Source: Alphaproteobacteria bacterium (GTDB lineage: Bacteria > Pseudomonadota > Alphaproteobacteria > RF32 > CAG-239). Taken from it: DNA of 35,851 nt. A model generated the notes under the pieces. That model worked only from the letters and a program-made list of their open reading frames with translations, was not told the origin of the DNA and ran no database searches. The stretch spans positions 1 through 35,851 of the forward strand of contig JAGASU010000003.1 in the NCBI GenBank assembly GCA_017621635.1, given 5' to 3'. Of this stretch, positions 209 through 35,851 are shown in pieces. Made by a program: the position numbers and the translations under genes. Each line of letters opens with the position of its first letter. The first letter of the stretch is position 1.

Positions 209-1240
209 TTATTTGCTACTCAACCCCAGTGGGGTAAAGGTGAAGCGAATCACTTTCCAATCGTTATATCTAGCACCGCTTTGTTTTGCCAAGACCTTAA
301 AAGCACCTTGGTCTTGTGCAAGATAAATAGCTCTCTCTGCGCTATCAGCCAACGCGGAAAAATAAGTATCCGAACGATAACGTTTCATATCTTCAATCAT
401 AACGGCACCGGGGATAATATCGCCTTCTTTGGTGAGCTTAACCGAGATAACAACTTCAATATTCCTGTCATCTTTTCCGCTGCCGCTGATCTTCCATGCT
501 TCCTGAATTTTGGATTTGACATAATCCACACCGGAAATGGATAACTCACTGAAATAAGAGCCTTTGCTGTTTCCTCCCTCGATTCCCATATTGTTAACCG
601 GCTCGTCGTGAGGGATTTGTGCCGGAGAATCTTCGGTGCCGATTTGTTTTTGCAAATCATCAACCGAATTCATTAAGCTTTCAAGCGGGTTGGCTTTTCT
701 AACCGCAGCAGGTTTCTTCTTGGTTGTCGGCTGGTTAGCCGGTTTTGTGTCTTTTTTAGGTTCGGGCTTTTTCTTCGGCTCCGGCTTTTTAACCGGTTTT
801 ACCTGCGGCTTTTTCTGAGGAATAGGCGCGGGTTTCTTCTTTTCTTTAATCGGTTCCTTTGATTCTTTTTTAGGTTCTTCTTTAACTTCCTCTTGTTTCG
901 GTGCTTCTTCAATTAAAGACGGCGCTTTGATTTCAGGAGCTTCAACTACCGGTTCCGGTTTAGGTTCTTCCTGCGGTTTGGGTTCTTCTGTAACCTGTTT
1001 GGGAGAGGAATTTTCTTCCGCCGGTTTTTCTTTACGGGTAGCGGGTTTCTTCTCTTCACCGCGAACAGCTAATTCGGGAATATTTGTTGAATCCGAAATT
1101 TGTATATTTTCCAAATCAACAATAATCGGCGGTTGTTCGTCAAATTCACGTTTACCCGACAAAAAATTAATATCCAAAACACATAGCAAAACAACTGCTA
1201 TGTGAAGGGCTGCCGATTTGTAAACGTAATTTTTCTGCAT
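209..1240 (-). CDS. tolA: TolA-like energy-transducing protein of the Tol-Pal system
   Basis: Inner-membrane protein that links the TolQ-TolR motor to the periplasm and outer membrane. The 343-residue product has one N-terminal membrane segment (about residues 10-28), a long Lys/Pro/Glu-rich linker (about 60-185, with repeats such as KKPEPKK) and a folded C-terminal domain (about 230-343) of the TonB/TolA type. The ATG at 1240 is preferred over a TTG three bases upstream because GGAAGAG lies 5 bases before the ATG. It is the last gene of tolQ-tolR-tolA, starting 15 bases after tolR. The Pro-rich linker is more TonB-like than the Ala-rich helix of E. coli TolA, but the tolQR context favours TolA. 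No tolB or pal follows: a response regulator converges on this gene. Confidence 0.85.
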   Translation of the reverse strand: MQKNYVYKSAALHIAVVLLCVLDINFLSGKREFDEQPPIIVDLENIQISDSTNIPELAVRGEEKKPATRKEKPAEENSSPKQVTEEPKPQEEPKPEPVVEAPEIKAPSLIEEAPKQEEVKEEPKKESKEPIKEKKKPAPIPQKKPQVKPVKKPEPKKKPEPKKDTKPANQPTTKKKPAAVRKANPLESLMNSVDDLQKQIGTEDSPAQIPHDEPVNNMGIEGGNSKGSYFSELSISGVDYVKSKIQEAWKISGSGKDDRNIEVVISVKLTKEGDIIPGAVMIEDMKRYRSDTYFSALADSAERAIYLAQDQGAFKVLAKQSGARYNDWKVIRFTFTPLGLSSK

Positions 1241-1255
1241 CAAAACTCTTCCGAA

Positions 1256-1678
1256 TTATTTTTTTCGAGCTTCGGTTTTTAAACCGACTTTGGAAAATCC
1301 GGCCTCTTTAAGCAATGCCATTAAGCCGATAACACTGCCATATGCAGAAGAGGCATCGCCGGAAATTGTAATTGTAACATCCTGATTTTCCCCTTTGATG
1401 GCCATAATCTTGTCAATAATCGTGTCAGGTTCAATAACGCTTTGCCCGATATAATAAAAACCGTCTTTGTCAACACTGATGTTGATTGATGTTTCTTTTC
1501 CGTTTAATGTTCCCCCGCCGACTTTAGGCAAATCAAGCGGAATACCGGAAGTCATTAAAGGAGCGGCCACCATAAAGACCACCAGCAACACCATCATAAC
1601 ATCCATCAGGTTTGTCATATTGATGTTAGCGTTTCGGCGGCTGTTGCGTCTGCTTGTTCTCCCGTTTCCTAAAGCCAT
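1256..1678 (-). CDS. tolR: TolR/ExbD-family proton-channel component
   Basis: A 140-residue member of the ExbD/TolR family, which forms the proton-motive-force motor with TolQ. A basic cytoplasmic start (many Arg in residues 7-15) leads to one membrane segment at about 22-43 with the conserved Asp in NLMDVMMVLLVVF (residue 26), the proton-carrying position. The periplasmic part follows (GIPLDLPKV, then the beta/alpha domain with DKDGFYYIG). It starts 2 bases after the tolQ stop, which indicates translational coupling. ExbD is the alternative name, but the neighbouring TolA-like protein and the TolQ length fit Tol better. Confidence 0.9.
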   Translation of the reverse strand: MALGNGRTSRRNSRRNANINMTNLMDVMMVLLVVFMVAAPLMTSGIPLDLPKVGGGTLNGKETSINISVDKDGFYYIGQSVIEPDTIIDKIMAIKGENQDVTITISGDASSAYGSVIGLMALLKEAGFSKVGLKTEARKK

Positions 1679-1680
1679 CG

Positions 1681-2415
1681 TTATTCTCCGGCCATTTCAG
1701 CTTTAATGGCATTGTCATCAATCTCTCTGGAAAGAATGCTGGAAAACTCCGCCATAAAGTTTTCTAATTTTTTAGCGTAGCGTTCAATATCAGAGGTGAT
1801 AATATTATAAGCAACATAGGCAGGAATTGCCGCGATTAAGCCAAACGCAGTAGTAAACAAAGCTTCGGCAATACCCGGAGCAATTGAGGTTAAAGAGTTG
1901 CTTTGTGTGGCAGCAATAGCATTAAAACAGGAAATAATACCCCAAACCGTTCCAAACAAACCAACCAACGGGGCAACTGAGCCGGTGGAAGCTAAAAAGC
2001 CTAAATGGTTATCAAGCTCATCAAGCTCTTTATCCATTGAAACCATCATGGATTTTTCGATTCGCTGTTGCAAAGAAACGCCTCTTAAGCCTCTGTCTGT
2101 TTTGGATTTTAAAATATTTGTCCGGCGCCATTCTTTCATCGCAGCAACAAACATCGCAGACATCGGGTCTTGCGGGTTGCCGATAGAGTCATATAATTTA
2201 TCTAAAGACCCACCAGACCAAAATCGCTCCTCAAATAGCTTAGAGAGTCTTTTAACTTGGCGCAATGTGTTGAATTTTTCAAAAATAATCGCCCAAGACC
2301 AAACGGATGCGGCAATCAACCCGATCATAACCGCTTTGGTAATTAAGTCAGACGACCACACCATATCCCACATTGAAAATTGATTTACAACTTCGTTAGC
2401 AACCTCTGTTTCCAT
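1681..2415 (-). CDS. tolQ: TolQ/ExbB-family motor protein
   Basis: A 244-residue inner-membrane protein of the MotA/TolQ/ExbB family. Three membrane segments are visible at about residues 24-46, 150-178 and 185-212; the last two include the conserved GSVAPLVGLFGTVWG and GIAEALFTTAFGLIAAIPA stretches that line the channel. It energises outer-membrane constriction during division together with TolR and TolA. The start at 2415 has AGAGGAAA just upstream. It is the first gene of the tol operon here; ybgC, usually upstream in other proteobacteria, is absent. A weak candidate promoter lies at 2461-2489. Confidence 0.93.
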   Translation of the reverse strand: METEVANEVVNQFSMWDMVWSSDLITKAVMIGLIAASVWSWAIIFEKFNTLRQVKRLSKLFEERFWSGGSLDKLYDSIGNPQDPMSAMFVAAMKEWRRTNILKSKTDRGLRGVSLQQRIEKSMMVSMDKELDELDNHLGFLASTGSVAPLVGLFGTVWGIISCFNAIAATQSNSLTSIAPGIAEALFTTAFGLIAAIPAYVAYNIITSDIERYAKKLENFMAEFSSILSREIDDNAIKAEMAGE

Positions 2416-2537: not shown

Positions 2538-2870
2538 TTACACCGTTCCGGCAATCCACCGTAAAAAGTGGAAACCGAGAAAGACGACAAGTACTACAAT
2601 AAATATTAATGCCCCCCAGCCTATTAACATAAGCAAGATATTACCAAAAAGCTTGTGTATTCCCGTCAACCAATAAACAAGGAAGAACACGAAGAAAAAA
2701 ACTTTTCGAACACCGAACCCGTGACCATGAAAAAAATTCACGATGGCCGGAAAGCAAAAATCATCTATGTAGCCGAGTTTGGAGTTAAGATAAACTAAAA
2801 CCCAAACAGTTATCCAAGCGCATATCGCAGCCCAGATAAAGGAGAAAACTCCCTCTTTAAGATCTTTCAT
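2538..2870 (-). CDS. Small inner-membrane protein, unknown function
   Basis: I do not recognise the family. The 110-residue product is strongly hydrophobic, with about three membrane segments (roughly residues 9-29, 57-72 and 76-105) and a short loop with HGHGFG near residues 49-54. It stands as its own transcription unit: a TTGAAA-17-TATAAT promoter lies upstream (2900-2928) and a strong terminator lies directly downstream (2493-2531). No clear Shine-Dalgarno sequence precedes the ATG. The isolated good promoter with a palindrome over the expected transcription start suggests it is regulated. Its function cannot be inferred. Confidence 0.7.
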   Translation of the reverse strand: MKDLKEGVFSFIWAAICAWITVWVLVYLNSKLGYIDDFCFPAIVNFFHGHGFGVRKVFFFVFFLVYWLTGIHKLFGNILLMLIGWGALIFIVVLVVFLGFHFLRWIAGTV

Positions 2871-2956: not shown

Positions 2957-3631
2957 TTATTTTTTTTGCCTCTCATCACGGAGTTTTTCAACCCATTTTA
3001 ATCTCCTGACGCATTCATTTCCGGGGGCTGTCGGTCCGTAAATCTTACATAAATGGATACCGATGTCCGGTTCACCGGCCAAGGTGTAACAAATGTCTCC
3101 TCTTGTGGTAATGCTTCGGATTTGAGTGCCGTAAGCAGGGACGTCCCTGAAAAGAAAAGCAAAAGTTCTTTGTTTATAAAATAAATTAAGCCCCATCTGT
3201 TTTAAAACCCGATTCATGTCAGATTTAAGTATCACACTGAATGAACAAGAGGTTTGTCCGCTCATATCCCTGAAAATCTTGAAACTTCCGTCAAGCAAAC
3301 CGATAGACATATCCCCTTCTAGAGGAGGCAAAGCTTTTTGTTCTTCAGGTAAGGGAGCTGTTGTATCGGTTTGCCCTATAAGGTCGGCGGCTCTGTCCAT
3401 AGCGTCATTAAAGGTTTTAACTTTGGTAATATCTCGCTCGGTTTCTGAATAATCACTAAACATTTCGTTAAACAAAGCTTCGTCTTCGTCCACTTCATCA
3501 AGAACAGGAGCAGAACCGGCGTCGGCTTTTGTTTCTGCAACTTCTTCATCATCAAGAACTTGCGAAAAAACAGGTGTGCAATAAATCAAGAGAAAAAAGG
3601 TCGCCCAAAATGTTAAAGCGATTCGCTGCAT
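2957..3631 (-). CDS. Exported protein with four conserved cysteines, unknown function (paralogue of the next gene upstream)
   Basis: I do not recognise the family. The 224-residue product has an N-terminal signal peptide (hydrophobic to about residue 23, likely cleavage after VFS), an acidic low-complexity stretch (about 26-70) and a C-terminal domain with four cysteines at 129, 181, 195 and 207. The pattern CxFSVxL ... CYxL ... C-I ... EC also occurs in the protein encoded just upstream (3642-4400), with the same 14-residue step from the second to the third cysteine. The two genes are 10 bases apart and are probably one operon of duplicated periplasmic proteins. GAGG lies 6 bases before the ATG. 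Two disulfides are a reasonable prediction. Confidence 0.8.
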   Translation of the reverse strand: MQRIALTFWATFFLLIYCTPVFSQVLDDEEVAETKADAGSAPVLDEVDEDEALFNEMFSDYSETERDITKVKTFNDAMDRAADLIGQTDTTAPLPEEQKALPPLEGDMSIGLLDGSFKIFRDMSGQTSCSFSVILKSDMNRVLKQMGLNLFYKQRTFAFLFRDVPAYGTQIRSITTRGDICYTLAGEPDIGIHLCKIYGPTAPGNECVRRLKWVEKLRDERQKK

Positions 3632-3641
3632 TATAAACCTC

Positions 3642-4400
3642 TTAGTTAATGTTGGTTAAGGTTGTATCGGAAGCGCCGAGATTCTCAACAATCTTTTGAA
3701 TAACAACATCAATATCAGAAAGTTCTCTGGTTTCTTTTTCTTTATCCTGAGCAGCAATTTCCGTTGCTGAAATTTTCTTGAACTGGCCGAAATATTCCGG
3801 ATTCGATGTGTTAACAAGCTGGAATAACTTGGTGCATTCTTTTTCGCCGTTATTAAGCCCGAATCCGCTGTTGTTATCAAGGTTGCGGGCAATATCACAA
3901 GGGGAAACCTTATAAGAGGCCTCACTAAGCATTAAGTAACACTTCTCATTGTCAACGTGCGACCGGATGGTAATTTGTTTGTCTGCTCCGAAAGCATTAA
4001 CGGTTATTGCGGTTTTTAATGGTTTGGCAATCATCTCTTCGCCCAATAAATCTTTTTGTTTTGCCGCTTCTTCGGTACCTAAAACCGATTCGACATATCT
4101 GTTAAATTTAAAACGCTCGTCAACAGTATCATTCCACTGTAAATCTATTGTGAAAGAGCGAAAGTTTACGGCCGTACGATTATAAAGCGTTACGGAAAAA
4201 TCGCACCCTGTAACAACACCGTCAGTAGAAACCGGTGCAACGTCATGTATTTTAAAAATAACGGCATCGGAACGGGTGGTTGGTTCTTGTTTTTCTTCAT
4301 TTGAGGTGGGAGTTGGCGCTTTTCTCGCGGCAGCCAAAACCGGCAGGCAAAAAACAATACCAGATAATAAAACCGATAAAAACTTGATAGATTTACTCAT
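3642..4400 (-). CDS. Exported protein with four conserved cysteines, unknown function (paralogue of the next gene downstream)
   Basis: A 252-residue protein with a classical signal peptide (hydrophobic 6-22, likely cleavage near LAAA). The mature part holds cysteines at 66 (GCDFSVTL), 154 (KCYLML), 168 (SPCDIA) and 189 (KECTKL). This matches the order and local motifs of the downstream gene's product; the loop between the first two cysteines is longer here (88 versus 52 residues). It has no lipobox and no membrane segment after the signal, so a periplasmic location is likely. The ribosome-binding site GAGG sits in the 3' arm of an RNA hairpin just before the ATG. I cannot name a function. Confidence 0.8.
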   Translation of the reverse strand: MSKSIKFLSVLLSGIVFCLPVLAAARKAPTPTSNEEKQEPTTRSDAVIFKIHDVAPVSTDGVVTGCDFSVTLYNRTAVNFRSFTIDLQWNDTVDERFKFNRYVESVLGTEEAAKQKDLLGEEMIAKPLKTAITVNAFGADKQITIRSHVDNEKCYLMLSEASYKVSPCDIARNLDNNSGFGLNNGEKECTKLFQLVNTSNPEYFGQFKKISATEIAAQDKEKETRELSDIDVVIQKIVENLGASDTTLTNIN

Positions 4401-4490: not shown

Positions 4491-5297
4491 CTAGCTTATT
4501 TCTTCAACTTTCTTTTTTAAACGGAGCAAATCGGTCCAAACTTTTGATTTTTGCGCAGTGCTTCTTAATAAATAAGAAGGATGATAAGTCGCGAGAACGT
4601 AAGCCTTTTTTTGTGATGAAATCGAATATTCCAGCCATTTTCCTCTTGTTCGCGAAATTGAATCAGCACAATCCATAACCGATTTCAACGCAATTCCGCC
4701 TAAAAGCAAGAGAAAATCCGGTTCAATCAATTCAATTTGTCTTTTTAAAAAAGGCAGACAAACGGCAATTTCATCATCAGTCGGCGGTCTGTTCCCCGGC
4801 GGGCGCCACGGCAAAACGTTTGTAATATAGCAATCGGCGCGATTTAGCTCAATTGCAGTAAACATTTTATCCAGTAATTTGCCGCATCTGCCCACAAAGG
4901 GTCTGCCGATTCTGTCCTCATCAGCTCCGGGTGCCTCTCCGATTAACATAATTTTAGCTTTATTAGAACCGTCGCCGAAAATCGTTGAAGCAGCTGTATT
5001 TTTTAAATTGCAGCCGTCAAATTTTTCCAGTAATTCTCTAAGTTCTTCAAGCGAAGTTGCTTTTGCGCAAATATCCTTGGCATTTTTTAGGGCAGCAAAG
5101 GAAGTCAAAACCAGCGCGCCGGAAGCCGGAACCTGAGCCGCAAGTACGGACGACGAACGCATTGCCGAAACCGTTGTTTTGGGGATAATGGGCTGATTTT
5201 CTTTATTAAAAGCGCACACTTCATCCGAGCAGGTTTCCGTAACACCTGCCCATATATACCAGTCAAGAGCTTCTTGTATGTTAATTTGTTTATCCAT
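4491..5297 (-). CDS. Uracil-DNA glycosylase, family 4 type
   Basis: Removes uracil from DNA as the first step of base-excision repair. Motifs: GEAPGADEDRIGRPFVG (uracil pocket and water-activating loop), ITNVLPWRPPGNRPP, LLLLGGIALKSVM and the DNA-intercalating YHPSYLLRS. The 268-residue form starting at 5297 is chosen over the ATG at 5315 because TATAAT directly abuts that first ATG (5316-5321), so the transcript should begin inside or after it. In classical family-4 enzymes four cysteines hold a 4Fe-4S cluster. Here the CxxC before the first motif reads CNLK and the expected Cys in the 'VLPWRPP' segment is Trp, so the cluster is probably absent, as in other alphaproteobacterial members. Divergent from the TPR gene. 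Confidence 0.9.
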   Translation of the reverse strand: MDKQINIQEALDWYIWAGVTETCSDEVCAFNKENQPIIPKTTVSAMRSSSVLAAQVPASGALVLTSFAALKNAKDICAKATSLEELRELLEKFDGCNLKNTAASTIFGDGSNKAKIMLIGEAPGADEDRIGRPFVGRCGKLLDKMFTAIELNRADCYITNVLPWRPPGNRPPTDDEIAVCLPFLKRQIELIEPDFLLLLGGIALKSVMDCADSISRTRGKWLEYSISSQKKAYVLATYHPSYLLRSTAQKSKVWTDLLRLKKKVEEIS

Positions 5298-5315
5298 TGC
5301 TATCAGTTTATACAT

Positions 5316-27458: not shown

Positions 27459-28571
27459 ATGAGTGATGATAAACAAGGTCTGGATTCTTTTTTAACAACA
27501 GAAACCTCAGCCCCTAAAGAAGAGAGTCAGGCGGTAAATTTGGAAGACGAATTTGCCAAATTGTTAAATAATTTCATTACCGATAATGCTGAAAATAAAG
27601 AAGTTACCCAACCGGAACAATCATCAACACCGGCAACAGGAGGTTTGGAAGGTTTTATTAGTCAACCTCAGCAGGAGGCTCCGACAACAAGCGGTCTGGA
27701 TGGTTTTATCAGTCAATCTCAGCCGGAGGCGACCGGACTTGACAGCTTTTTAACCCCGTTCGAAGAAAAACAACCAACCCGTAATGAAGCTCCCGTCCAA
27801 GAAACGCAATCACTTGACACACTCATAACAAATGTAGAAGTTCCTGCTCCGGTAGCGGTAAGTGAAACAGAAAATTCCGAAAACCCGATGCATTCGGAAG
27901 AACAGGAATTAGCTCGTGCCGTAACAAATTTTCAAGACGGTGTTTATGCTTTGGCAGATAAAAAAAATTTGAAAATGCCGCAAACCGACTATACAAATGA
28001 AATGCTTATTCCCAACTATAAACCGAGTGTGGGTAAAAAAATAGCTCAATATCTCTTAGCTTGTTGGGACCTGATTAATAAATATGATCCTGAAAATATG
28101 AGCCGCCTGTCTCCGGAGGCAAATGATGAGGAATATTTAACTTTTGCCGAGAGTCTGAGCGATACGGATATGCAATTGTCGATTATTTCGTATGTCGAAA
28201 TCCTGATTAATATGGAAATTTGTGAAGTTCAATACGAACAAAAGAGAGAACTGGCTCTCAAAAACCGGATAAAAAAGGAACTTTATGAAGAGTATATGGA
28301 ATTGCAGGAACGTAAAAATACTTTCAAGCAAAAATTAAAAGAAAAAAACTTTCCGATAGATACCGATAAATTAATAGATAATTATTTCCGCGCCGCCCAA
28401 AAAGATGCGGAAGGAGCTTTTCAGGCGCTGACTAAAAATCCGGCAATGTTTTCACCGATACAATTTGAAAAAATGCATCCCCGCTTTTTCGGCTTAATAA
28501 AAGTTACACCGGAAGACGGCATAAAAGCCAACCAAAAAATCGGCGAATTTATCAAAAAACTTAAAGTTTAA
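27459..28571 (+). CDS. Acidic soluble protein with repeated GL(D/E)xF motifs, unknown function
   Basis: I do not recognise the family. The 370-residue product has no signal or membrane segment. The N-terminal 130 residues are acidic, Gln/Pro/Ser-rich and probably disordered, with five copies of a short motif: GLDSFLT (residue 7), GLEGFISQ (62), GLDGFISQ (79), GLDSFLT (93) and a weaker SLDTLIT. The C-terminal part (about 145-370) is helical, with a coiled-coil-like stretch (about 250-300), ending in a basic tail. GGAG is located 6 bases before the ATG. It is 88 bases ahead of the next gene, in the direction of the coupling ATPase. The motif repeats suggest multivalent docking; a T4SS substrate adaptor is one idea. 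Confidence 0.7.
   Translation: MSDDKQGLDSFLTTETSAPKEESQAVNLEDEFAKLLNNFITDNAENKEVTQPEQSSTPATGGLEGFISQPQQEAPTTSGLDGFISQSQPEATGLDSFLTPFEEKQPTRNEAPVQETQSLDTLITNVEVPAPVAVSETENSENPMHSEEQELARAVTNFQDGVYALADKKNLKMPQTDYTNEMLIPNYKPSVGKKIAQYLLACWDLINKYDPENMSRLSPEANDEEYLTFAESLSDTDMQLSIISYVEILINMEICEVQYEQKRELALKNRIKKELYEEYMELQERKNTFKQKLKEKNFPIDTDKLIDNYFRAAQKDAEGAFQALTKNPAMFSPIQFEKMHPRFFGLIKVTPEDGIKANQKIGEFIKKLKV
27642..27740 (+). repeat. Tandem imperfect repeats encoding the GL(D/E)GF motif
   Basis: Units starting at 27642 and 27693 (51-base step) are nearly identical at DNA level over 35 bases; a third, more diverged unit starts at 27735. The steps are multiples of three, so the frame is kept. This points to a recent in-frame duplication. 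Confidence 0.7.
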
Positions 28572-28578
28572 ACTATTT

Positions 28579-28607
28579 TTGACAAAATAACCGATTTAAA
28601 GTAGACA
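28579..28607 (+). promoter_or_regulatory. Candidate internal promoter before the 513-residue gene
   Basis: A perfect TTGACA (28579-28584) is followed after 17 bases by TAGACA (28602-28607, weak); GACAAT two bases on is an alternative. It lies about 55 bases upstream of the ATG at 28660, in the 88-base gap. Confidence 0.35.
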
Positions 28608-28659
28608 ATCTCGGGTTTTTGTGTTACCATACAACAAAGGTTCAAGATAGGAGGCTGCA

Positions 28660-30201
28660 ATGGCTGAAGAAAAAAAAGATGTTTTTGCTGAATTTGAAGA
28701 AGAAAAAGAAAAAATAAAAAAAGAAGCTTATGGATATGCCGGCAAAGAGGATAACGAAAATAACACGACGTCTTCGGCTGATGAGGGCAATGATTCTGAT
28801 AAGGATGATAGCGCCCCTGCACCTGAGGATAATTCAAATGAGGATAACACGCCGCCGGCTCCCTCGCGTGCGCCGGATGGCGAATCTCACGCCTATGATG
28901 ATTTAGACCTAAATCAAATGGGGAAACCTCAACAAGAAACCTCCTCAGGCAAAGCGTCATCAAAAGGAAATTGGCCCAAAGCTCCGGAACATAAAAAATC
29001 AGGAAAAGGCGGTGGCGGTAAAGACATAATGGAACTCATTTGGAATGAGTTTATTCTGGGCTTTTATGACTGGGTGATTGATACGGCTGTCGATACCGTT
29101 TTAGATTTTGCCGACTGGGTTCTTTACAAACCATTCGCAAACAATGAAAACAAGCCGGATAAGTCCAAAGAATCTGAGAAAAAAACAGCGTTTGATCTTG
29201 GAGATGAGTTAATTGCCAAATATTCTCAAAACGCTCAAAAAGGCAAAGAATTGTTTGAGCAGGCGCATGGCGAAATTTTAGAAAATATAAACAGAAATCA
29301 AGCCGGGATGGCTCCTGAATGGAAAATCTGGAAAAATGAACCGCCGTTTTTTACCAAAGTTTTGGATTTAGCTCAAAAAGCCAAAGAAAATCCGAATTCT
29401 CCTGAAGCCGCTAAATATGCTCGTTTTATAAAAGCGCCTGAAATTATGGATTCTATGTTTAAAAAAGAAATATTGCTGCGCAAGATGTCGGTCGGCTTAG
29501 CCGCAATAGATGAAACTTTGAATGCGGATGAAAAAGCCTTGCCACCAAAAGTATCAAGCGAGTTAATTGTAATGAAAAAAGCTTTAGAAAAACAGAAAGA
29601 TCCTGAAAAGTTAAAAGAAAGCTTAAAAAAATCAATTGAAGCAATAACACCTTTACTGAAAATTGAAAGGCCGACAGATAAAGTGATTGCTGAAAAAATA
29701 AGCAATATGGTGCAAGTTATTTCAGACCCGACAACGGATTTGGAGGTGTTAACCAGAGATATCGGTAAAAATTTAAATGAAGCAAATGAGGCAATAAAGA
29801 AAAATAAAGAGATGAATCCGCAAACAAATATTGAGAATAGCAGCAAAGGCTATTACGAAGATTTGATGAGCAATATTGATAAAATCCAAAAAACTTACGC
29901 AAATGATCCTGAGAAAGCCAAAGCAACTGTTCATGATTATATGGTTTCGGTCACAGAAGCAATTAAAACGGCTAAAACGGACACGGATTCATATTTATCA
30001 GCCAATACGTTAACCTCTAAGCCGCATAAGAAGAAAGCCCGAGAAAGCCTGAAAAAAGCAACCGCCTCCATAAATAGCTTTATACTGGAAGGTGGAGAAA
30101 TCGGAGGAAAGCCAAGAAGTCCGGAACAAGCCCAATCTCCGTTAACGGGCGATAAATACAAAATTTTTAAAGCTGTAAAAGACTACGGATTAGGAGCTTA
30201 G
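28660..30201 (+). CDS. Large acidic/helical cytoplasmic protein, unknown function
   Basis: I do not recognise the family. The 513-residue product has a highly charged N-terminal region (1-120; Glu/Lys then Asp/Asn/Pro-rich, probably disordered). It is followed by an amphipathic aromatic segment (about 124-152, IMELIWNEFILGFYDWVIDT) that could touch a membrane or a partner. A long all-helical part (about 170-490) has many Lys/Glu heptads. No signal peptide. GGAGG lies 5 bases before the ATG. It ends 1 base before the next gene, so it belongs to the coupling-protein operon. Its size and helix content fit a scaffold or adaptor; no catalytic motif is visible. Confidence 0.75.
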   Translation: MAEEKKDVFAEFEEEKEKIKKEAYGYAGKEDNENNTTSSADEGNDSDKDDSAPAPEDNSNEDNTPPAPSRAPDGESHAYDDLDLNQMGKPQQETSSGKASSKGNWPKAPEHKKSGKGGGGKDIMELIWNEFILGFYDWVIDTAVDTVLDFADWVLYKPFANNENKPDKSKESEKKTAFDLGDELIAKYSQNAQKGKELFEQAHGEILENINRNQAGMAPEWKIWKNEPPFFTKVLDLAQKAKENPNSPEAAKYARFIKAPEIMDSMFKKEILLRKMSVGLAAIDETLNADEKALPPKVSSELIVMKKALEKQKDPEKLKESLKKSIEAITPLLKIERPTDKVIAEKISNMVQVISDPTTDLEVLTRDIGKNLNEANEAIKKNKEMNPQTNIENSSKGYYEDLMSNIDKIQKTYANDPEKAKATVHDYMVSVTEAIKTAKTDTDSYLSANTLTSKPHKKKARESLKKATASINSFILEGGEIGGKPRSPEQAQSPLTGDKYKIFKAVKDYGLGA

Positions 30202-30202
30202 A

Positions 30203-30694
30203 ATGAAAAAAATCAAGAAATTATTTCGTTTTTGTTTTATCAGTGTACTCGTTTTAATCGTTTTCCTGTTTTTGGGGCGGATAATTTTTCGCTTATTGTG
30301 GAATTTTGATATTTTGAGCGCTGTATCATACCAAAAAATGCAAAATTACTGGGAAAGCGGCGGGGTTTTTAACACATTTAAAGATTGCAGTCTTTTAGGC
30401 TCATTGCTGTTATTCCCGATAATTTGGCTCCATGCCAGCTATAAACTCTATAAATATGGCTTGGGTAAGTTTTTAACCCGACCGATTATTTTGCTCTATC
30501 GCAGATTAACTCGGCCGAAAGTTATGGAAGTTGAACACGTTTCAATAAAAAATATGGGTTCGAAAGATAAAACGTTGGATGAAATTATTTCTGAAAAATT
30601 AAAATCAGAAGGAAAACAAGGCAGTTCGGCGCACTTGTCAAAGGATTTGCGCAAACAAATTGCTGCAAAAATCGGAGAAAATGAAAAACAATAA
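30203..30694 (+). CDS. Two-TM membrane protein of the coupling-protein operon (short paralogue)
   Basis: The 163-residue product has two membrane segments (about residues 11-32 and 64-82) and a cytoplasmic basic tail (98-163). Between them lies the sequence WNFDILSA...YWESGGVF. It shares this whole layout with the next gene's product: WxFDI at residues 33-37, W at 50 followed by (E/N)SG, P at 72, and YRxLT at the exit of the second segment. The two are clear tandem paralogues. The start follows the previous stop by 1 base. Function unknown; membrane partner of the ATPase is the inference. Confidence 0.75.
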   Translation: MKKIKKLFRFCFISVLVLIVFLFLGRIIFRLLWNFDILSAVSYQKMQNYWESGGVFNTFKDCSLLGSLLLFPIIWLHASYKLYKYGLGKFLTRPIILLYRRLTRPKVMEVEHVSIKNMGSKDKTLDEIISEKLKSEGKQGSSAHLSKDLRKQIAAKIGENEKQ

Positions 30695-30738
30695 TTTATT
30701 GTTAACTAATAGGAGCCTATAATAAATAATAAAAAACC

Positions 30739-30742
30739 GGAG
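30739..30742 (+). promoter_or_regulatory. Ribosome-binding site of the TTG-started gene at 30749
   Basis: GGAG with a 6-base spacer to TTG (30749). A second AGGAG at 30711-30715 has a 6-base spacer to an in-frame ATA (30722), which would be an unusual start. The alignment with the preceding paralogue starts in register from the TTG, which favours it. Confidence 0.5.
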
Positions 30743-30748
30743 AATAAC

Positions 30749-32038
30749 TTGAAACCACTGCTAATTATAATAAAAACTCTGATAATCGGCTACCTGTGGA
30801 GCATTATCTTCATAGATGGCATCAGGGTTCTTTTGTTAATAAATTGGCATTTTGACATCTTTTTGAGACAACATTGGGACTTGCTGAGCTATAAATGGAA
30901 TAGCGGAGCAGGGGTTAGCAATTCCGAACTGGGCTTTTTCTTAATTATTGTCAGCTCAATACCATTATGGCTGGCGGGCTGGGTCGGGTTATGTCTTGTC
31001 AAATGGCAGCGTTTGTTCAAAAGGATATTCTTCAGCCCGTTATATCTCTATCGCAAATTAACCTTAAAAACCAAACCGCCGGTTGTGGTTAAGAAAAAAT
31101 CTGTTACCGAAGAAGTCAAAACCATCAAAAAGACGCCGATTATTAAAAAAGCGCCGATAAAAAGACCGCCGCTCCCTTCGGCAACCTTATTGCAATCAAA
31201 TATAAATAACAATTTGTCTGCCTCTCGGCCGTCAACATCTTTTCAGGCAAGCAAGAAAAATCCGGAAATGCCTGAAAATCACGCTTTGTTTAATTTTGAC
31301 GATGATGATTTCGATTTGGATTTTGATTTTGACTCCAAACCCGAACCGGAGAAAATTCCGTCTGCTCTGGCCGTGGATACCCCTAAAACCATAGAAATGG
31401 AACAAACAATACCGCCGCAAAAAGAAAAAACACCGCCGGCTCCTAAGGCGGAAAATAAAGCTCAAACAAACAACAATAAAAAAGAAAATCCAAATCAAAA
31501 CAAAAATAAATCACCGGAAGCTGCCCCGATCAAAGAATCTCATACCCCCGTTTTAGATGTTTTAAAACAAAAAGGATTTGACATAATCCCGAGCGCTATC
31601 ATCAAAAATACCACCATCGATTATGTTGCCGTATCAAAAGACCAGTTGCTGTTATGTTTGGTCGATAAAGAATCCGGCGATTGGCTTGCCGACGAAGAAA
31701 AGTTTAATGACGAAGAGCCGCTATGGTTCTCTGAAAGCAGTCACCGGATTTCTCCTGTCCGTAAAATTGATTTGGCTCGGGATATCCTTAAAACGAAACT
31801 TGCCGTTGCTGATATGAATTTTGAAATTCTGTCTTATGTGGTTATTCAGGCCGGAAATATTATCAATGCGGAAGATATGTTTGAAATATGGAATACAATG
31901 AACATCCACGTTACGAGAATAAACCGTGGCAGTCCGAAAGAAATTCATCTGTTTTCCAAAGCAGTTGATAGCTGCGAAGAAAAAACAGATAAAAACACAT
32001 TGGAAAAACTGAAAAAACTTATCAGAAGTTTGGCTTAA
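30749..32038 (+). CDS. Two-TM membrane protein with acidic linker and C-terminal cytoplasmic domain (long paralogue)
   Basis: The 429-residue product shares its first 110 residues with the preceding gene (two membrane segments, about 5-31 and 62-84). A basic, Pro-rich stretch (105-150) follows, then a very acidic tract (DDDDFDLDFDFD, about 186-200), a Lys/Asn/Gln linker to 265, and a compact alpha/beta domain (about 268-429) with LDVLKQKGFDII, TIDYVAVSKDQLLLCLV and LSYVVIQAGNIIN strands. I considered a nuclease-related fold, but no complete catalytic set is visible. TTG is used as start. In size and layout it recalls Legionella DotM (membrane anchor plus soluble domain beside the coupling ATPase); this is analogy only. 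Confidence 0.7.
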   Translation: MKPLLIIIKTLIIGYLWSIIFIDGIRVLLLINWHFDIFLRQHWDLLSYKWNSGAGVSNSELGFFLIIVSSIPLWLAGWVGLCLVKWQRLFKRIFFSPLYLYRKLTLKTKPPVVVKKKSVTEEVKTIKKTPIIKKAPIKRPPLPSATLLQSNINNNLSASRPSTSFQASKKNPEMPENHALFNFDDDDFDLDFDFDSKPEPEKIPSALAVDTPKTIEMEQTIPPQKEKTPPAPKAENKAQTNNNKKENPNQNKNKSPEAAPIKESHTPVLDVLKQKGFDIIPSAIIKNTTIDYVAVSKDQLLLCLVDKESGDWLADEEKFNDEEPLWFSESSHRISPVRKIDLARDILKTKLAVADMNFEILSYVVIQAGNIINAEDMFEIWNTMNIHVTRINRGSPKEIHLFSKAVDSCEEKTDKNTLEKLKKLIRSLA

Positions 32039-34231
32039 ACTAATTATTAGAGGAAAAAATGGTAAAAGAAAGAGGAAAAGAGTGGGAAGAATATGACAAC
32101 GCCGTCCGTTGGATGACAATAACGTTTTTCATAGCGTTAATAGTTACGGCGGCATTGGCTTATCTGGCTCAACCGTTAGCTTTTTTGGTTCAAAAAGGAA
32201 TTTCTAAAGAAAGTATGGATTTGGTTATCCGTTTTGTTAAAAAATCTTTGGTTGATCCCGGCTTTCTTTATGATCGCTATGCCAAATGGTTTCGCCAAAT
32301 CTATCGTTATAACGGAGAATTTAAATTAAGCTTGTGGCTGCCGATTCTCCCGTTTATTTCCTTTCCGGTAATCTTATTGGTTGGCGGGGTGAAATGTCCG
32401 TATCGTTTTCAATCAAATGTCCACGGTTCGGCGCATATTGCCACTCTGCGAGATATTCAAAGAATGCCGCTGTTGGGATTTGACGGTTTTTGTCAGGTTG
32501 TCGGGCGGTTTGAAGGCAAAATGTTGAAATTAAAAGAAACATTATCAACCCTATGCTGCGCTCCTCCGGGTACCGGTAAAACTGCCGGTGTGGTTATTCC
32601 GACAATTTTTAACTCAGAGGGCTTAAGTATTATCGTAAACGACCCGAAACCTGAGTTGTGTTTTAGTACAACCGGTGCAAGAAACAAAGTCGGACCAGTA
32701 TTTGTTATTAACTGGGGACGTGAAGATAACCCTGAAACCGGAGAATACTATCCGAGCTGGAATCCGCTATCCCCCGGCGCGTTACCTGCTCCGGGGCCGG
32801 AACGTGATTTGTATGTCGATTCAATGTGCAATACGTTGGTGGAAGACCCGAAAGGCGGAGCAGACCCTCACTGGTCAAAAACCGGTCGAAGCGCTTTGTG
32901 CGGTTTTATTCACTTTGTGGCTTCAAAATGTGAACGGGCGCTGGCAAATGAGAAATTTATTCAAAAAATCTATGAAGGTTCAATGACAGCCCAAGATAAA
33001 GCCGAGCTTATCCGCTATTATGAAGATATGAGTATCGGTGGTTTACGGGCAAACGCAGCCAAAGCCATTCAGGACTTGCAAAGCGATAATTTAACCATTG
33101 AAAATTATCTCCCCATCGGCACTTGGAATTTGTTGCCCGAAAAGTGGATTAACCACGAACCGTGTATGGCAATGATTTTGGAGTGGATCACAACTTCGCA
33201 AATTGAGCAGACCAATGAAATTAAGCGTCGTTTGGAAGAAGGCGACCAAATGGCTGCTATGGCCGATCCGATGCGTGATTTGCTTGATGCCGCGGTGGAA
33301 GAAGCCAACAACTATGGTTATTCCCGCCGTTGTGTGACTGAGCTTAGCGCTTTAAGTGCAATGCCGGATAAAGAGCGTGGTTCTGTTATGTCAACAGGTT
33401 TAACCGGTATCGGTATCTTTAAAAACTCGGCTGTTGTTGCCAGAACAAGTTTTTCTGACCTGAAGTTTAAAGATTTGCGCGGAATGAAAGACCCTGTTAC
33501 CGGCGAGTGGAAACCGATTTCGGTTTATTTGTCCGTAAACCAAACCGACGCGCAGGCCTTAAACCCGATTAGTGCAACGTTTGTGGATTTGATGAGTGCG
33601 TATTTGATTTCTAATCCGCCGAACTTTGTGAACAAAACCGACGGCAAAATGGGGCCGTTCCCTGTATTGTTCGTGCTCGACGAGTTTCCGCAAATGCCGA
33701 AATTAAAAGCGGTTATTGACGGACCAGCGGTCGGACGTGGTCAAAAAGTGTCATATCTGCTTATCGGACAAGACTTAGGCCAAATTTCCGGCAAATATGG
33801 TAAAGATGACCTTGAAACTGTAATTTCTACCACGGCTTGCAAAGTTATCTTGTCACAAAACAACGAACAGACAGCACAGCGTTTCTCTAAAATGATTGGT
33901 AACAAAACCGTTCAGACAACTTCATTTTCAAGAAGCGAAGGCGGCATAAACAACAAAGACTTTAACCCGTTTGCCAAAAACGTAAGCTATCAGCTGCAGG
34001 GCGTTTCAGCCATTAGCTCAAATGATTTGCTGAGTTTGCCGATGTTAAAGCAGGTTGTTTTAATGCAAGGGGCGATTGAAACGCCGATTATGGCTGACGC
34101 ACCGCGTTTTTATCTTGATAAAAAAATGCTGGCACAGTCTAAAATACCGCATTCTGCATGGGTGCCTGACTGGATTGTAGCCCAAAGGGCAGATGAAAAT
34201 GAAGATATCTTGTCTAAATTAGGGATAGATT

Positions 34232-35851
<1,620 letters not shown>

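Follow-up and report, generated by a model that had tools for sequence, protein, structure and literature searches.

Known Proteins of Comparable Design

Small periplasmic proteins that hold disulfides and act on glycan-cutting enzymes include Ivy, MliC/PliC, PliI and PliG. The two putatively exported proteins described here, P1 and P2, resemble such inhibitors of lysozymes and lytic transglycosylases in their small size, their disulfides and their periplasmic location, the last two being predicted for P1 and P2. Neither these families nor LprI occurred among the Pfam matches of the single proteins or of the 65-member alignments.

ScwA of Salmonella is periplasmic, carries two disulfides and affects lytic transglycosylase levels (PMC7933661). 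It shares these traits with P1 and P2 to the extent that they are predicted for the latter, together with a link to lytic transglycosylases, and it serves only as a precedent for a protein that works in a similar way. It belongs to another family. ScwA carries an LprI domain and was acquired horizontally in Salmonella, whereas P1/P2 represent a conserved, class-wide gene.

In fold, the closest described protein is IrmA of E. coli, which is FN3-like with two cysteines about 60 residues apart (PMC10269718; PMC5810482) and has been described as cytokine-binding (PMC5810482). As predicted for P1 and P2, it is exported, small and built as an FN3-like beta-sandwich that holds a cysteine bond, but it has a single cysteine pair (PMC10269718) in place of four invariant cysteines and lies in a different gene context. 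Further traits of the IrmA family are a domain-swapped dimer and cytokine binding. A literature search yielded nothing on the P1/P2 family itself.

The P1/P2 Gene Pair

The window, by which we mean the whole stretch of 35,851 nucleotides that was analysed, carries two tandem genes on the minus strand. P2 (252 aa; 3642..4400) is transcribed first, followed by P1 (224 aa; 2957..3631), with a spacer of 10 bases (3632-3641), and the ORF ends and the short gap lie exactly where an earlier sequence-only reading had placed them. That reading had also assigned a signal peptide to both products, and the N-termini, with a basic and then a hydrophobic stretch ending in VFS/Q or AAA, agree with putative signal peptides. 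Read from sequence alone, these suggest that P1 and P2 are exported to the periplasm. A lipoprotein alternative, raised by Cys18 in both signal peptides, was ruled out because there is no lipobox and Cys18 is not conserved. At residues 23-24 of P1 (window 3560-3565), a Gln that is invariant or nearly so in orthologues follows the presumed signal-peptidase site (A/S-Q), and mature P1 may begin with Gln or pyroglutamate.

The mature cysteines are located at residues 129/181/195/207 in P1 and 66/154/168/189 in P2. They fall within a four-cysteine Ig-like core, delimited by conservation, structural models and fold matches, which spans residues 105-217 of P1 (2981..3319, minus strand) and 43-198 of P2 (3807..4274, minus strand). 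The distance between the first two cysteines (C1-C2) is 52 in P1 and 88 in P2, while the step from the second to the third (C2-C3) was noted earlier as 14 in both proteins, a value that extends to all of their orthologues. The motifs proposed around the cysteines stood in part: CxFSVxL is present in both proteins (CSFSVIL and CDFSVTL), as is (N/K)EC (NEC and KEC), and CYxL occurs in P1 as CYTL but is missing from P2, which reads CYLM(L). The non-cysteine letters of these motifs (FSV, NEC) are not conserved in orthologues.

Conservation within the Family

P2 was found in 120 of 126 genomes of the same family and P1 in 116 of them, with the pair put at about 95%, and both genes are single-copy and near-universal there. 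All four cysteines are kept in every distinct orthologue, 57/57 for P1 and 58/58 for P2, so that the sequence-only reading, which had staked its pattern on their conservation, is upheld; C2-C3 is 14 in every one of these proteins, and W213 of P1 and W89 of P2 are invariant too. Positions conserved throughout the core are of structural kinds (Cys, Pro, Trp, Gly), and no set resembling catalytic residues was found among them.

A scan of named genomes, for which the query was a P1 alignment lacking the genus of the window (g1), yielded 80 loci, all of which (80/80) carry both genes in tandem, mostly less than 40 bp apart. Most are titled as MAGs of uncultured Alphaproteobacteria or of a proteobacterium, and several of these come from the gut or rumen of animals; Azospirillum sp. 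CAG:239 is also included, and from this record and general knowledge we take the family to be of the CAG-239/RF32 type.

Some lineages show peculiarities of their own. P1 of the window's genus (g1, loci L002-L018) is long-branched in the tree and no longer carries the WP and NRCR motifs, which P1 keeps in the other genera that lack slt. In two loci of genus g8 (L067 and L077), P2 carries a long C-terminal extension and reaches 444 and 460 aa as against about 250.

Paralogy and Predicted Fold

Comparison of clean P1 and P2 alignments with hhalign gave a probability of 94.7% (E 5.6e-8), which rose to 96.8% (E 3e-10) when a wider P1 core was used; for the latter comparison, 100 column shuffles gave 3.0% or less and the reversed profile 0.2%. 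In the tree, the P2 proteins group in a single clade (support 99/90) that excludes both P1 and the outgroup members, and the duplication therefore predates the radiation of the CAG-239-type family. P1 and P2 are thus true paralogues, and the profile-profile match with its shuffle controls bears out the earlier treatment of both proteins as one related family. The same gene order, UDG-P2-P1-slt, is also seen in G152 (locus L107), the one genome from a different family of the order. In locus L101, a 536-aa ORF between the uracil-DNA glycosylase (UDG) gene and P1 scores 9.8 bits, against 5.1 for the best shuffle, which is suggestive of a P2-like protein.

AlphaFold2 models had a mean pLDDT of 78 for P2 and 70.7 for P1, with a confident core in the latter. 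Both consist of six strands, with a short helix at C2, a last long strand holding C3, a helix at C4 and a short last strand. In the P2 model the beta-sandwich core (about 43-198) is interrupted between strands 3 and 4 by a helical insertion (93-119) that explains the longer C1-C2 distance, and is followed by a C-terminal helix (212-251). In the P1 model a low-confidence linker (about 25-104) precedes the core at 105-217. The best fold match of both models is IrmA (5ek5), with VIA-align Z scores of 9.3 and 9.4, about 2 units above the next chain in each case; Foldseek alone gave weak matches to it (E 4.2e-3 and 2.7e-2). The models thus agree in fold, on which the notion of a shared pattern depended, and they strongly support the prediction that each protein contains one Ig/FN3-like beta-sandwich with four invariant cysteines.

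Searches of the PDB with three profiles gave no relevant match and no sequence similarity to IrmA, and we therefore speak of an IrmA-like fold rather than of membership of the IrmA family. Searches of Pfam and NCBIfam, both with single proteins and with entire alignments, produced only scattered chance matches, in agreement with the earlier view that the pattern lies outside known families.

Low pairwise identity between P1 and P2 and the differing C1-C2 distances would be expected if two unrelated secreted proteins had come to share a cysteine pattern by convergence or chance. This is scarcely credible given the profile-profile match, which shuffled columns do not approach, the strand order common to both models, the reduction of the excess length of P2 to one helical insertion and the identical best fold match.

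The four cysteines are likely to form two disulfides. Every homologue examined, including orthologues, outgroups and the rhizobial and roseobacter relatives considered below, keeps all four, so that no paired loss points to their pairing. The window genome encodes three Thioredoxin_4 (DsbA-like) domains, and DsbB was not detected in it with Pfam PF02600.

Gene Context

The usual order in the family is a gene for a TPR protein divergent from that of UDG, then P2, P1 and slt, whose product of about 585 aa is a soluble lytic transglycosylase (Pfam SLT). The UDG, of family 4 (4491..5315, minus strand; TIGR00758), lies upstream of P2 in 79/80 named loci. In 65/80 of these loci P1 is followed by slt, overlapping it or lying within 105 bp of it in 51 cases; nine of the 80 lack slt and six end too soon to tell. 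Outside the family, a P1-like gene lies directly upstream of slt in loci L101-L107, L200 and L208-L211, whereas slt was not found beside P1 in L207, and across the wider class there is mostly one single P1-like gene ahead of slt. Several of these lineages carry genes for a Mur ligase and an LD-carboxypeptidase opposite P1-slt. The ligase appears to be Mpl-like, judging by sequence and place, and both neighbours would fit peptidoglycan recycling.

In contrast to P1/P2, which are present in nearly all of the 126 family genomes, this slt occurs in only 72. The window genome lacks it, and so do most or all genomes in genera g1, g3, g4, g5 and g14, where P1/P2 are nevertheless retained. In the window's genus, P1 is followed, all on the minus strand, by a gene for a small, hydrophobic 110-aa protein that is kept in the genus and has no Pfam or NCBIfam match (2538..2870), tolQ of the MotA/TolQ/ExbB family (1681..2415; PF01618, E 6e-35), tolR of the ExbD/TolR family (1256..1678; PF02472, E 1.7e-24) and a gene for a TolA/TonB-like protein with a Lys/Pro-rich middle (209..1243). 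The last was assigned from its position after tolQR and a weak TonB_2 match (E 0.0067) that is under the Pfam cut-off. P1 also precedes tolQRA in loci L064, L168, L170 and L171, but most family genera do not have tolQRA beside P1.

The close pairing of P1 with slt in many families raises the possibility that P1 was, at least ancestrally, dedicated to Slt as an inhibitor or chaperone, comparable to the periplasmic inhibitors of lysozymes and lytic transglycosylases, with P2 as a duplicate; where slt is lost, another SLT-domain enzyme would be the one controlled. Such an enzyme would generally be at hand, since some SLT-domain protein was found in 47 of 49 sampled family genomes, including genomes without a neighbouring slt (none was found in G018 and G038). 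We nevertheless consider this unlikely: the pair is retained where slt has gone, P1 keeps its full motif without decay in slt-less genera other than that of the window, and Pfam gives no known inhibitor family. A partnership with Slt as the sole function is weakened further by the number of genera in which slt is missing. As the pair has outlived slt and sits ahead of tolQRA in the window's genus, slt alone cannot define its job.

The earlier reading had proposed that the neighbours be checked for a secretion or pilus system. Such a neighbourhood was rejected for the pair: the adjoining genes are envelope genes, slt in most genera and tolQRA here. A VirD4/TraG-like type IV coupling protein is encoded about 28 kb away (32059-34281, plus strand; PF02534, E 2.6e-54), without a visible link to the pair. 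Four ORFs lie ahead of it (27459-32038) and one behind it (34232-35032), none of them with a Pfam or NCBIfam match, and the region 27459-35032 (plus strand) may be a type IV secretion locus of an unusual kind.

Probable Distant Relatives Linked to TonB and ExbBD

The core profile also reaches exported proteins encoded beside tonB in large genomes from a different family of Alphaproteobacteria (E about 1e-4), which score 21.5-24.9 bits compared with 8.8 for the best shuffle and match the core profile with an hhalign E of 8.5e-9. Named relatives occur beside tonB in heme-uptake loci of Sinorhizobium meliloti and Phyllobacterium, and in the roseobacter Marinovum a relative lies ahead of genes for biopolymer transport (ExbB/ExbD) and TonB. 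None has a Pfam or NCBIfam name, and examples are annotated as "hypothetical protein" (UIJ94165.1, AKP00108.1).

Like P1, these proteins have a signal-peptide-like start and one four-cysteine domain with a C2-C3 step of 14 and a C3-C4 step of 8-10, the series beside tonB being 58-14-8 or 58-14-10. They differ in a C1-C2 distance of 58 rather than 52, in having no long linker and in their heme/TonB gene context, as opposed to slt for P1. In the outgroups, which are the most distant members, C2-C3 is 14-16. The P2 profile gave no direct match to the TonB-linked proteins, and their homology to the P1/P2 family is probable rather than certain.

Relatives in heme/TonB and ExbBD-TonB operons, together with the loci in which P1 precedes tolQRA, could mean that the domain is an accessory of proton-driven trans-envelope systems, aiding TonB or TolA, or their receptors, in acting across the periplasm, and that the link to slt reflects an opening of the wall needed there. 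This strikes us as doubtful, since the homology involved is distant, tolQRA is not a neighbour in most family genera and slt is the usual one outside the family.

The same relatives bear on whether the pair could be secreted to bind host molecules in the animal gut, as proposed for IrmA. The fold match to this protein, described as cytokine-binding (PMC5810482), and the animal hosts of the family would suit such a role, but it is very improbable for proteins that are near-universal and single-copy in the family, lie in an operon with housekeeping wall genes, have relatives in rhizobia and marine roseobacters and bear no sequence similarity to IrmA.

Proposed Role

P1 and P2 are probably cell-envelope helper proteins. 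The reading that we favour, at a probability of roughly 0.45, is that they belong to a new family of soluble periplasmic proteins, Ig-like and disulfide-stabilised, which serve as adaptors or regulators in peptidoglycan turnover and for trans-envelope machines. The domain would be a non-catalytic binding or adaptor module that, within the periplasm, helps, regulates or protects enzymes that cut peptidoglycan and machines that span the envelope, possibly those of Tol/Ton, and P2, with its C-terminal helix, may work with P1 as a pair. Ig-like folds are common and likeness of fold shows no function, and it is gene context from which the biochemical role is derived. The invariant cysteines, the paralogy, the shared fold, the slt operons with peptidoglycan genes opposite, the ExbBD-TonB and tolQRA neighbours and the ScwA precedent all speak for an adaptor; the loss of slt from several genera that keep P1/P2, and neighbours that vary by lineage between slt, tol and ton, speak against it. 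A more specific proposal, which we regard as quite unlikely in this form, is that a class-wide family couples wall-cutting enzymes (Slt) to TolQRA/ExbBD-TonB and that a duplication made it a near-obligate tandem pair in the gut family of the CAG-239 type.

Significance

The four-cysteine pattern marks one domain spread across the Alphaproteobacteria, which could not be seen from the window alone, and P1/P2 constitute a new, unnamed alphaproteobacterial family to which an old duplication and a link to slt, tol and ton genes can now be added. The family has no Pfam or NCBIfam name, yet nearly all members of a large uncultured gut lineage carry it. To our knowledge, few such periplasmic helpers have been described in Alphaproteobacteria. 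Probable relatives are present in laboratory species, Sinorhizobium meliloti among them, where knockout is routine and, if the gene context holds true, one could test directly what assists or controls wall-cutting enzymes and Ton/Tol machines in Alphaproteobacteria.
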